A stretch of DNA of 64,000 bases from Pelistega sp. (GTDB lineage: Bacteria > Pseudomonadota > Gammaproteobacteria > Burkholderiales > Burkholderiaceae_B): positions 44,942-108,941 of the forward strand of contig JAUNUI010000008.1 of the NCBI GenBank assembly GCA_030538255.1, in the 5' to 3' direction. The position numbers were made by a program, and so were the translations under genes. This document shows positions 20,184 to 23,253 of this stretch, in pieces (the stretch's first letter is position 1; every line of letters begins with the position of its first letter). Under the pieces are notes generated by a model that saw only the letters and a list, made by a program, of their open reading frames with translations, made no database searches and was not told the origin of the DNA.

Positions 20184-21242
20184 TTAGGCCTTCTGACGGC
20201 GATTAATCACCGCTTGAGCCAAGCGCTCTAACACTTGCTCGGTTGAGTCCCAACCAATACAACCATCCGTAATACTCTGACCGTAAGTCAGTGCTTGACC
20301 TTCAACTTGGTCTTGGCGACCTGCGACTAAGTGCGACTCAATCATCACGCCAAAAATGCGCAGATCACCTGCTTCCATCTGCTGGGCCACATCCTCAAGA
20401 ACGGCGGGTTGATTCTCAGGTTTCTTGCTACTGTTCGCATGGCTTGAGTCAATCATAATACGTGGCAAGATGCCAGCTTTCTCAAGTTCTACACTGGTTT
20501 GCTCAACGAATTCAGCTTGGTAGTTAGGTGCTTTACCGCCACGTAAAATAATATGGCAGTCTTTATTACCAAGGGTCTTCACAATCGCTGAGTGGCCACC
20601 CTTAGTTACTGATAAGAAATGGTGTGGCTGAGAAGCGGCTTTAATGGCATCAATTGCAATGCGGATATTACCGTCGGTACCGTTCTTAAAGCCAACTGGA
20701 CATGATAAACCTGAAGCTAACTCACGGTGTACTTGGCTTTCTGTCGTACGTGCACCAATCGCGCCCCATGAAACGAGGTCAGCAATATATTGCGGCGTAA
20801 TCATATCTAAGTATTCACAGCCTGCTGGTAGACCCTTGGCATTAATCGTCAAGAGTAACTCACGTGCCATACGTAGACCCTTATTAATGTTGTAGCTATT
20901 ATCAAGGTCTGGGTCATTGATTAAGCCCTTCCAACCTACAGTGGTGCGCGGCTTCTCGAAATACACGCGCATCACCACCTCAAGCTCACCCGCGTATTTA
21001 TCACGTAAGACTTTTAATTTGTCAGCATACTCGAGAGCGGCCTTAGTATCATGGATTGAGCAAGGACCCACCACCACCACTAAGCGGTCATCTTCACCTT
21101 GTAATACCTTATGAATTGCTTGACGTGCATTGTAAACGACATCAGTAACGCCATTCGCTGCTGGGTACTCACGCATCAAATGTGATGGTGGGCTTAATTC
21201 TTTAATTTCATGGATACGAATATCATCAGTATTGTAAGACAC
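20184..21242 (-). CDS. aroG: 3-deoxy-7-phosphoheptulonate synthase (DAHP synthase), AroG type
   Basis: A 352-residue class I DAHP synthase. It condenses phosphoenolpyruvate and erythrose 4-phosphate as the first step to all aromatic amino acids. Motifs include VVVGPCSIHDTKAALEYA, VYFEKPRTTVGWKGLINDP, GLPAGCEYLDMI and DSSHANSSKKP. The start is a GTG at 21242, well supported by AAGGAG nine bases ahead. A 255-base leader holds a 28-codon aromatic-rich ORF and a terminator, the layout of transcription attenuation. Which amino acid inhibits the enzyme cannot be read from the sequence. Confidence 0.95.
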   Translation of the reverse strand: MSYNTDDIRIHEIKELSPPSHLMREYPAANGVTDVVYNARQAIHKVLQGEDDRLVVVVGPCSIHDTKAALEYADKLKVLRDKYAGELEVVMRVYFEKPRTTVGWKGLINDPDLDNSYNINKGLRMARELLLTINAKGLPAGCEYLDMITPQYIADLVSWGAIGARTTESQVHRELASGLSCPVGFKNGTDGNIRIAIDAIKAASQPHHFLSVTKGGHSAIVKTLGNKDCHIILRGGKAPNYQAEFVEQTSVELEKAGILPRIMIDSSHANSSKKPENQPAVLEDVAQQMEAGDLRIFGVMIESHLVAGRQDQVEGQALTYGQSITDGCIGWDSTEQVLERLAQAVINRRQKA

Positions 21243-21361
21243 GCTAGAAACTCCTTGTTGATTTGGCCAATTATAAAACCAGTAAAACGATTAATTGCAA
21301 TAATTCCTTGTTCGCCGTCAATGCAGTCAAGAAAATCAGCGCTATTCTAAGGCGGCCAAAT

Positions 21362-21391
21362 AAAAAAAAACCGCCCTATTCCTAGGCGGCT
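21362..21391 (-). terminator. Leader terminator (attenuator) before aroG
   Basis: On the minus strand GAGCCGCCTAGGAATAGG continues into GCGG and nine T residues. The CCGCC/GGCGG stem begins 20 bases after the leader ORF stop and ends about 120 bases before the aroG start. Its 5' arm can instead pair with the leader segment at 21438-21447 (CCTAG-GCGG against CCGC-CTAGG), forming an antiterminator. Confidence 0.82.
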
Positions 21392-21411
21392 CTTTCAGGT
21401 TCTTGCTGTTT

Positions 21412-21498
21412 TTAACGACTGCACGATGTCCTTCTCTCCGCACTAGGCTTCGAAAACCAGAAGTAATAAAAGAAGAAAGACATAACTAAATTTTTCAT
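21412..21498 (-). CDS. Aromatic leader peptide of the aroG attenuator
   Basis: An ORF of 28 codons plus TAA, on the minus strand. It begins MKNLVMS and then has eight consecutive aromatic residues, FFFYYFWF (residues 8-15, codons at 21454-21477), before a polar tail SKPSAERR. Such a run in a short ORF ahead of an antiterminator/terminator pair is the hallmark of an attenuation control peptide like PheL. Mixed Phe, Tyr and Trp codons suggest it senses all three end products. No strong ribosome site is seen before the ATG at 21498; an internal ATG (codon 6) keeps the aromatic run. The inference is strong but untested. Confidence 0.82.
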   Translation of the reverse strand: MKNLVMSFFFYYFWFSKPSAERRTSCSR

Positions 21499-21567
21499 AC
21501 TGTTAATGCTATCACAGCTTTATGACAGTTTTAATAAAAAATGCTGCTAGTGCACAAAAAAGACACA

Positions 21568-21581
21568 CTTTTCATGAAAAG
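21568..21581. promoter_or_regulatory. 14-bp palindrome upstream of the aroG leader
   Basis: CTTTTCATGAAAAG is a perfect palindrome 70 bases upstream of the leader ORF. It could be an operator, but no regulator can be named. Confidence 0.35.
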
Positions 21582-21655
21582 CGAGGGTTTTCATTAGCTT
21601 AAGTTCTTTAAAAACGCTCGCTTAGTCAAGCCCACCCTTGCAATGGAGCTTTAAA

Positions 21656-21764
21656 CCCTCGCTTAAAACCCTCGTTTAAGACCCTCGCTAATGACGGTAT
21701 CAATATATACAAGTTATAAACACACTATCATTAAGCGAAGCATTAACATTAAGCGAAGCATTAA
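21656..21764. repeat. 13-bp and 18-bp tandem repeats beyond the tldD 3' end
   Basis: CCCTCG recurs at 21656, 21669 and 21682 (13-base period). Then CATTAAGCGAAGCATTAA occurs twice in tandem, exactly, at 21729-21746 and 21747-21764. Confidence 0.75.
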
Positions 21765-21786
21765 CGCCTCACTTAATGCTAGAGTA

Positions 21787-23253
21787 TTAAGATGTACCAC
21801 CCACCGTTAAACCATCAATACGAATGGTCGGCATGCCTACACCAACTGGCACACCTTGGCCTTCTTTACCACATGTACCAACACCTGAGTCGAGCGCCAT
21901 ATCGTTACCAATCATACCCACCTTATTCATGGAGTCAGGACCGTTACCAATTAAGGTGGCGCCCTTAACAGGATAAGTAATCTTGCCATTCTCAATCATA
22001 TAGGCTTCAGAAGCAGAGAAAACAAATTTACCACTGGTAATATCAACTTGGCCACCCGCGAAGTTCGCCGCGTAAATACCCTTCTTGACCGAAGCAATAA
22101 TTTCTTGTGGATCCTTATCGCCATTCAGCATAAAGGTATTGGTCATACGTGGCATAGGAAGGTGTGCATACGACTCACGGCGCCCATTCCCTGTCACCGC
22201 AGTCTTCATCAGGCGTGCATTCATGCTGTCTTGCATATAGCCGCGCAAGATACCATCCTCAATCAGCACATTACGTTGTGTCGGATTGCCTTCATCGTCC
22301 ATATTCAAGGAGCCGCGTCGATCGGCAATCGTGCCATCATCCACCACGGTCACGCCCTTAGAGGCGACACGCTCACCAATGCGACCTGAGAAGACGCTTG
22401 AACCCTTACGGTTAAAGTCGCCTTCAAGACCATGACCCACGGCTTCGTGCAGTAGAATGCCTGGCCAACCACTACCTAAAACCACAGTCATCTCACCCGC
22501 TGGAGCAGCTTTCGCCTCAAGATTCACCAAGGCCTCAGAGACCGCTTTATCGACATACGACTGAAGTAAGTCTTCAGTGAAATAGTTCAAACCTAAACGG
22601 CCGCCACCACCTGAATTACCCACCTCACGGCGTCCCTTAGATTCAGCGATCACGGTGAGTGATAAGCGCACTAATGGACGAATATCAGCTTGTAAGCGAC
22701 CGTCACTCCCAGCGACCATCACCACATCATATTCAGAGCCAAGGCCTGCCATCACTTGTACGATGCGCGGATCTTTAGCACGCGCAAGTTGCTCAACACG
22801 CTCTAATAAAGCAATCTTATCAGAGGTGTCTACACTACCCGTAGGGTCAATCGGGGCATAAAGCTTATGTGGTTCAGGTAAGGTCTTGGCAATCTTTGCC
22901 TTACCTTGCCCTTGTCGCGCAATAGTCTTCACGGCCGCTGCGGCTTTTAACAAGGCCTTAGGTGATAGCTCATCGGAATAAGCAAATGCGGTCTTGTCGC
23001 CTGCCACTGCACGCACGCCCACCCCTTGAGAGATACTAAAACTACCGGTTTTAACAATCCCCTCTTCCAAGCCCCAGCTCTCGCTGCGTGTATATTGGAA
23101 ATATAAATCGGCATAGTCGGCCTTATGGCTAAAAATATCCGCTAAGGCTCGCGCCAAATGGCGGTCCTGTAAACCATGTGGCTCAAGTAAAAGAGCTTGT
23201 GCCACCTCAAGTGGGGTGCTATTTGCCATATTTGCTGTACTACTATTCATCAT
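21787..23253 (-). CDS. tldD: Metalloprotease TldD
   Basis: A 488-residue member of the TldD/PmbA family. With TldE it forms a cytosolic zinc protease that matures microcin B17 and degrades CcdA in E. coli. The zinc motif HEAVGHGLEGDFNRKGSS is near residue 260-277. Other family landmarks are GIVKTGSFSISQGVGVRAVAGD, SFVFSASEAY-like GKFVFSASEAYMIENG, and the C-terminal GMPTIRIDGLTVGG. No pmbA is seen in the window. Several ATGs are possible (23253, 23250, 23229); none has a strong ribosome site and the first is used here. Confidence 0.93.
   Translation of the reverse strand: MMNSSTANMANSTPLEVAQALLLEPHGLQDRHLARALADIFSHKADYADLYFQYTRSESWGLEEGIVKTGSFSISQGVGVRAVAGDKTAFAYSDELSPKALLKAAAAVKTIARQGQGKAKIAKTLPEPHKLYAPIDPTGSVDTSDKIALLERVEQLARAKDPRIVQVMAGLGSEYDVVMVAGSDGRLQADIRPLVRLSLTVIAESKGRREVGNSGGGGRLGLNYFTEDLLQSYVDKAVSEALVNLEAKAAPAGEMTVVLGSGWPGILLHEAVGHGLEGDFNRKGSSVFSGRIGERVASKGVTVVDDGTIADRRGSLNMDDEGNPTQRNVLIEDGILRGYMQDSMNARLMKTAVTGNGRRESYAHLPMPRMTNTFMLNGDKDPQEIIASVKKGIYAANFAGGQVDITSGKFVFSASEAYMIENGKITYPVKGATLIGNGPDSMNKVGMIGNDMALDSGVGTCGKEGQGVPVGVGMPTIRIDGLTVGGTS

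Follow-up and report, generated by a model that had tools for sequence, protein, structure and literature searches.

All three aromatic amino acids are end products of the pathway entered via DAHP synthase, and in the genome of Pelistega sp. analysed here this entry appears to depend on one gene, aroG. How might a single gene be adjusted to three end products? The gene lies on the minus strand of a 64,000-nucleotide stretch of contig JAUNUI010000008.1, hereafter the window, to which all coordinates refer. Its product matches the NCBIfam equivalog AroG (599.6 bits, cutoff 568). It is the one DAHP synthase found in the genome, where the other PF00793 protein is KdsA. A class II DAHP synthase was not found there when 101 genomes were searched; the idea of such an enzyme as a second gate was dropped, as it is present in only one of the 101 relatives and not in the window's genome. 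Any control placed before aroG would thus act on what is seemingly the only entry to the pathway. Very probably, this control is ribosome-mediated attenuation, in which a short upstream open reading frame (uORF) would read Phe, Tyr, and Trp, each as an alternative input.

Other aromatic genes of the genus deserve mention in their own right. In the same genome trpE (locus L253, G000:C9) is preceded by its own leader ORF, MQTLATYITSYYAYYWRWWCSSAGFAR, with a terminator-like hairpin after it; Tyr codons are crowded beside its Trp codons, and a Tyr/Trp mix is also found in four same-genus genomes (L249–L252). The pheA gene is preceded by a frame that, judged by eye, is presumably SerC. In two genomes of the genus (G003 and G005; 1.6 and 1.7 Mb, both listed as 100% complete), neither an AroG match nor any other DAHP synthase was found. 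Their sole PF00793 protein is KdsA, so that these bacteria may be aromatic amino acid auxotrophs.

The elements of the aroG leader, in order of transcription, are the following.

21529–21534, minus strand: −35-like TTAAAA, separated by a 17-nt spacer from the box below.
21506–21514, minus strand: extended −10 box TGATAGCAT, ending 7 nt before the leader ATG; putative promoter.
21412–21498, minus strand: aroG leader ORF (uORF) of 28 codons, MKNLVMSFFFYYFWFSKPSAERRTSCSR, read from the sequence; an aromatic-rich uORF is conserved in relatives.
21454–21477, minus strand: control codons 8–15, Phe Phe Phe Tyr Tyr Phe Trp Phe, from the sequence, codon enrichment in 102 leaders, and the stall scan.
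21454–21482, minus strand: strand 1, overlapping the control codons and folding onto strand 2 in free RNA (1:2 hairpin), from the minimum free energy structure.
21438–21447, minus strand: strand 2, CCUAGUGCGG, the 5′ half of the antiterminator, within leader ORF codons 18–21, from duplex energy.
21381–21389, minus strand: strand 3, CCGCCUAGG, both 5′ arm of the terminator and 3′ half of the antiterminator, from terminator search, duplex, and alignment.
21362–21396, minus strand: intrinsic terminator (strands 3:4) with nine T, from the hairpin and 69 aligned leaders.
21251–21256, minus strand: Shine-Dalgarno AAGGAG of aroG, from the sequence; Shine-Dalgarno energy of −8.0 at the aroG start.
20184–21242, minus strand: aroG, class I DAHP synthase, GTG start at 21242, from family and protein searches.

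An earlier note, made from the sequence alone, had described a 28-codon ORF with FFFYYFWF at codons 8–15, and this is found exactly so on the minus strand. The uORF therefore carries codons for the end products of the pathway whose entry enzyme it precedes. The note had also stated that 21438–21447 is complementary to the terminator arm at 21381–21389; in duplex folding, CCTAGTGCGG (21447–21438) and CCGCCTAGG (21389–21381) indeed pair at −15.9 kcal/mol, with one bulged base. Strand 3 is thus shared, and the antiterminator excludes the terminator. The terminator stem runs from 21396 to 21364 on the minus strand and the nine T from 21370 to 21362, placing the terminator between uORF and gene; sequence and NCBIfam match bear out the note's order of a nine-T terminator and then a GTG-started aroG. 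When the 330 nt ahead of aroG were dinucleotide-shuffled 3000 times, the best eight-codon window held seven aromatics four times and never the observed eight. The minimum free energy structure of the whole leader consists of the 1:2 hairpin and the terminator. Its energy is not unusual (z = −1.24), so that the support for the element is comparative. Farther upstream, the gap between tldD and the leader (21579–21770) contains three tandem 13-nt units resembling GCTTTAAACCCTC, a fourth such unit set apart from them, one inverted copy (AAGCGAGGGTTTT), and an 18-nt unit present twice in tandem.

For the comparison, an AroG protein search found matches in 87 of 101 genomes, among them that of the window, and a scan of named genomes yielded 80 loci. 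Upstream regions were taken for 150 loci, counting the window's, of which 146 were placed by tblastn. Four regions holding too little of aroG (L136, L138, L144, and L150) were re-fetched as L242–L245, among which only L242 shows a leader with a terminator. At 111 of the 146 loci there is a uORF that begins with ATG and has four or more aromatics within eight codons. The more stringent threshold of at least six of eight is reached at 87 of the 146, versus 9 of 2920 shuffled regions. A terminator was identified by script after 102 of the 111 aromatic uORFs. The remaining nine are L016, L017, L089, L090, L101, L120, L128, L129, and L143. Of these, L016, L120, and L128 were seen by inspection to have every part of the element, their loops being longer, and L143 (genome G078) was recovered by the covariance model described below at 38.7 bits; L089, L090, and L101 are from an enteric, Rhodocyclus, and Shewanella, and L129 has only a weak aromatic uORF. 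Conservation of the element ahead of aroG extends across Burkholderiales, Xanthomonadales, and Rhizobiales; the full element was not found at the enterobacterial, Vibrionaceae, Shewanella, Zoogloeaceae, Ferrovum, and Chromobacterium loci. The earlier note had named lack of conservation of the ORF or stems in relatives as what would count against an attenuator; that comparison shows both to be conserved.

At L005 (genome G001, of the same genus), L008, L009, L115, and L135, aroG is present and the aromatic uORF is absent. The sequence upstream of aroG in L005 is unrelated and the leader is missing, which probably reflects a recent loss inside the genus. In a tree of 110 AroG proteins, the absence of the leader requires nine changes versus a mean of 24.3 when shuffled, and the F/Y/W leader requires 12 versus 32.9. 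These counts indicate that the leader follows the history of the gene, with several losses or gains, and that the Trp codon was gained or lost repeatedly. One further leader may be decaying: the ORF of L032 (Candidatus Burkholderia humilis) departs from the usual frame beyond FYFYFL and extends into the terminator region. Second copies of DAHP synthase provide a control within genomes, as an aromatic uORF precedes none of 19 such copies (L219 was read for 397 nt upstream only, and a twentieth two-copy genome, G100, was left out). Of the 19 genomes concerned, 12 carry the leader before the first copy and seven before neither. In genome G081 (L165 and L228) two DAHP synthase genes adjoin, and the leader of the first, MLRTAPYFFWFWYPTLLAAGRK, has two Trp codons.

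A covariance model, R1, was built from 69 leaders. In the window's genome it has one strong match, of 71.6 bits, the next scoring 18.9. Within the order, at E ≤ 0.01, it matched 54 of the 150 genomes scanned, many of the weakest matches covering only the terminator part. Within the class it matched 22 of 229 genomes, mostly weakly, and within the phylum, at E ≤ 1e-4, 51 of 398, one match each. All 67 matches of at least 46 bits lie shortly upstream of the start of a DAHP synthase on the same strand, although these include the window itself or genomes that contributed to the model and are not all independent. The distance to that start is about 23–145 nt for 56 matches (rough to about 20 nt) and 39–118 nt for the other 11. 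Among eight weaker loci checked (18.9–37 bits), one is near a DAHP synthase of 36% identity and seven are not near one. The association bears on a possible main role in trans for the leader peptide or for the short RNA left by termination; the attenuator RNA and peptide of Sinorhizobium meliloti trpL do act in trans (PMC7298713). With all strong matches preceding DAHP synthase and the pairing in cis kept, a main role in trans seems very unlikely for the aroG leader.

The pairing itself was analysed in an alignment of 69 nonredundant leaders out of the 102; L111 and L118 were dropped because of the poor hairpins chosen by the script. In the antiterminator 92.5% of cells are paired and 11 are changed on both sides, and in the terminator 96.6% are paired and 38 changed on both sides. 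None of these four values was reached in 500 shuffles, and sliding the register lowers pairing to 17–59%. Counted by pairs, a double change is found in two antiterminator pairs, which 270 of 500 shuffles reach, and in four terminator pairs, which 19 of 500 reach; the terminator gained no unusual number of further pair types (143 of 500). With hardly any variation in the core GGCGG/CCGCC/GGCGG, only a few outer positions carry the covariation. In a swap test on a more distinct set of 28 leaders, the mean pairing energy of strand 2 was −16.2 kcal/mol with the strand 3 of the same leader and −15.1 with foreign arms, a borderline difference (p = 0.052). Synonymous recoding of strand 2 weakens the pairing to a mean of −12.0 kcal/mol, and 11 of the 28 leaders are individually below 0.05. 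In the window, all 27 foreign terminator arms are poorer partners of strand 2 than its own strand 3, and the p value of synonymous recoding is 0.015.

These data also bear on another reading of the locus, in which the hairpin would merely terminate tldD, the upstream gene of that strand, and have nothing to do with the small ORF. However, the uORF and a promoter-like box lie between tldD and the hairpin, and the arm of the hairpin is complementary to the uORF, likewise in relatives. Furthermore, the CCGCC..GGCGG hairpin is absent within 400 nt before aroG at the six loci lacking the leader (L005, L008, L009, L115, L129, and L135). Given the arm pairing, its conservation, and this absence, a tldD terminator alone was rejected, with almost no probability left to it.

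The 102 eight-codon control segments are 64% T, and base composition alone would already yield many Phe codons: 263 are expected and 393 found. The excess is larger for Tyr (216 versus 53) and Trp (41 versus 4.7), and Leu and Ile are depleted (8 versus 151 and 1 versus 62, respectively); the leaders were selected as aromatic-rich in frame, which raises F, Y, and W in these counts and lowers other residues. The aromatic share is 0.80 in frame versus 0.31 and 0.30 in the other frames. The selection bias weighs least on the proportion of Trp within the aromatic codons, which is 41 of 650 where 1.5% is expected. It could be argued that a U-rich tract is kept for the pairing of strand 1, the Phe codons being accidental and no amino acid being sensed, since the control codons are U-rich and pair in free RNA with the G/A-rich part of strand 2. 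The in-frame aromatic share, the depletion of Leu and Ile, and the enrichment of Trp, even if partly exposed to the choice of frame, argue against it, and on this codon enrichment the accidental tract was discarded as extremely improbable.

Sensing of aromatic amino acids by the uORF is the preferred reading, and the question becomes how many of them are sensed. Among 135 distinct peptides classified by script, 64 have Phe, Tyr, and Trp, 65 Phe and Tyr, four Phe only, and two Phe and Trp. The earlier note had considered a leader with all three unusual; with 64 of 135, the combination is common in this family. (In L046 the Trp lies one codon past the scripted segment, and a looser rule gives all three in 41, not 40, of the 102 leaders.) A link between the Trp codon and a single DAHP synthase was considered and abandoned: nine of ten two-copy genomes of the family have leaders without Trp (the exception being G017, L030), but so do most single-copy relatives.

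The attenuator could effectively be a sensor of Phe, or of Phe and Tyr, with the single Trp codon and some Tyr codons as passengers. This is possible, though rather unlikely. It would agree with the near half of distinct leaders that have F and Y only, with the scarcity of Trp (absent from 67 of the 123 distinct control segments, present once in 55 and twice in one), and with L003, of the same genus, which lacks Trp and has a broken run. It would also agree with AroR of Corynebacterium glutamicum, whose Phe-Tyr-Phe codons are reviewed, in the excerpted text of PMC11802643, as responding to Phe and not to Tyr. On the other side stand the Trp share of aromatics given above, the place of Trp in the run, which varies between lineages, and the predicted effect of a stall there, as all 41 Trp codons give a probability of antitermination above 0.5.

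These probabilities come from a scan in which the ribosome was stalled at each codon. The RNA was assumed to emerge from the ribosome 12 nt downstream of the first A-site base and was folded up to the end of strand 3 and its loop, before strand 4 exists; the readout is the chance that strand 2 holds strand 3. In the window this is 0.99–1.0 at codons 3–14 (1.0 at codons 8–14), 0.7 at codon 15, 0.5 at codon 16, 0.14 at codon 17, and 0.13–0.26 from there to the stop codon. Antitermination predicted at codons 3–14 covers seven of the eight control codons, which are thus placed, under the assumed footprint, so that a stall would free the antiterminator. Over the 102 leaders the mean is 0.93 at Phe codons, 0.94 at Tyr codons, and 0.97 at Trp codons. 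Stalls in the window at codons 3–7, before the control codons, are also predicted to antiterminate. Ribosome-free RNA, before strand 4, gives 0.69 for the window and a mean of 0.71, so that termination without translation is not clearly predicted. Together with the conservation in relatives, the placement of codons 8–14 (Phe, Tyr, and Trp) for antitermination supports the attenuator proposed by the earlier note.

How the uORF would be translated is suggested by the position of its promoter. Of 101 leaders, 41 have the sequence TGnTAnnnT ending 6–9 nt upstream of the ATG, versus 10 hits for all other spacings within 60 nt combined; the 41 comprise 38 of 46 leaders from the window's relatives and three of 55 from named genomes. 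Because TGATAGCAT ends 7 nt before the ATG, transcription would start on or beside it. A Shine-Dalgarno-like match of −4 kcal/mol or stronger precedes 26 of 101 leaders versus 95 of 101 aroG starts. The window's leader scans at −4.7, with the matched bases inside the −10 box, and the seven bases before the ATG give +0.9. This sequence evidence suggests that the uORF of the window, and those of 38 of the 46 leaders from its relatives, are leaderless. By eye, leaders of Xanthomonadales and Bradyrhizobium have looser −10 boxes near the ATG, and those of Burkholderia and Oxalobacteraceae have a −10-like box about 25–40 nt upstream, the latter two probably not being leaderless. Leaderless mRNAs with an extended −10 TGnTA have been reported in Bradyrhizobium japonicum (PMC4842269).

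The mechanism would then be as follows. Polymerase would start at or a few bases from the leader ATG, and a ribosome would enter the uORF without a Shine-Dalgarno sequence. When charged Phe-, Tyr-, and Trp-tRNA are all ample, the ribosome should cross FFFYYFWF and strand 2; with strand 2 covered, strands 3 and 4 would pair and transcription terminate about 137 nt from its start. When any of the three is short, the ribosome would stall at codons 8–14, covering strand 1 and leaving strand 2 free, and strand 2 would take strand 3 before strand 4 exists, allowing readthrough into aroG. Since a shortage of any one would suffice to stall the ribosome, the control segment would behave as an OR gate at the first step of the shikimate pathway, with three pools of charged tRNA as its inputs. 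A wider proposal is plausible but must be regarded as tentative: the leaderless uORF would be a three-input OR gate and a dedicated, ancestral control of one DAHP synthase lineage (Burkholderiales, Xanthomonadales, and Rhizobiales), replacing the TyrR/TrpR control of enteric bacteria and tuned by gain or loss of a single Trp codon.

If this reading is true, one switch before one gene senses three charged tRNAs together. The element is widespread in β-, γ-, and α-proteobacteria. Leaders with F/Y and with F/Y/W form a natural series for tests of multi-input attenuation, and the leader is a possible handle for the production of aromatic compounds in harmless hosts such as Cupriavidus.

Membership in known RNA families was considered. 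The window scores 26.3 bits with the Rfam Phe_leader (RF01859), versus a gathering score of 55, and this membership was rejected; no Rfam family reaches gathering in the window region or in 16 relatives, of which 13 have the leader. A T-box was also discarded, being absent among the five Rfam matches of 20900–21900 at E ≤ 1, and the remaining matches of that interval (miRNA, RNAI, and lncRNA) were taken as chance. In the literature surveyed, which comprised search listings and excerpted passages, no description of the element in Burkholderiales, Xanthomonadales, or Rhizobiales was found. The main text of Naville and Gautheret (PMC2965389) has no mention of aroG, aroF, DAHP, or aromatic, and the attenuator website of Merino (PMC1173090) is described as holding putative attenuators before other aromatic operons. 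In Burkholderia cenocepacia, 82 5′ UTRs yield short transcripts, given in a supplementary table (PMC5688073), and these could include the aroG leader.

Leader peptides with control codons and mutually exclusive antiterminator and terminator are well known from pheL-pheA and trpL-trpE of enteric bacteria. Unlike the aroG leader, each of these reads one amino acid and controls a terminal branch. For E. coli aroF, attenuation was reportedly hypothesised by Camakaris in 1980. Entry into the shikimate pathway in that species relies on three isozymes and on the repressors TyrR and TrpR (PMC5343134). The attenuator RNA of S. meliloti trpL likewise begins at the ATG of a uORF, but it reads Trp and controls trpE(G) (PMC7298713). 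Closer in target is the uORFC-13-1 motif of Acholeplasma, in which a uORF with Phe codon(s) and a terminator also precede aroF, attenuation there being a proposal; as presented in the excerpts of PMC8632094, it differs in having 24 representatives (Acholeplasma and environmental) and at least one Phe codon, with no Tyr/Trp run described. A precedent in arrangement is aroR before aroF in C. glutamicum, also an attenuator with aromatic codons before DAHP synthase (PMC4046766, PMC11802643). Compared by description only, it differs in belonging to another phylum and in its Phe-Tyr-Phe codons, with no Trp mentioned in the excerpted texts. Attenuation before DAHP synthase is already known, and the aroG leader adds a widespread form of it that appears new in the literature surveyed.
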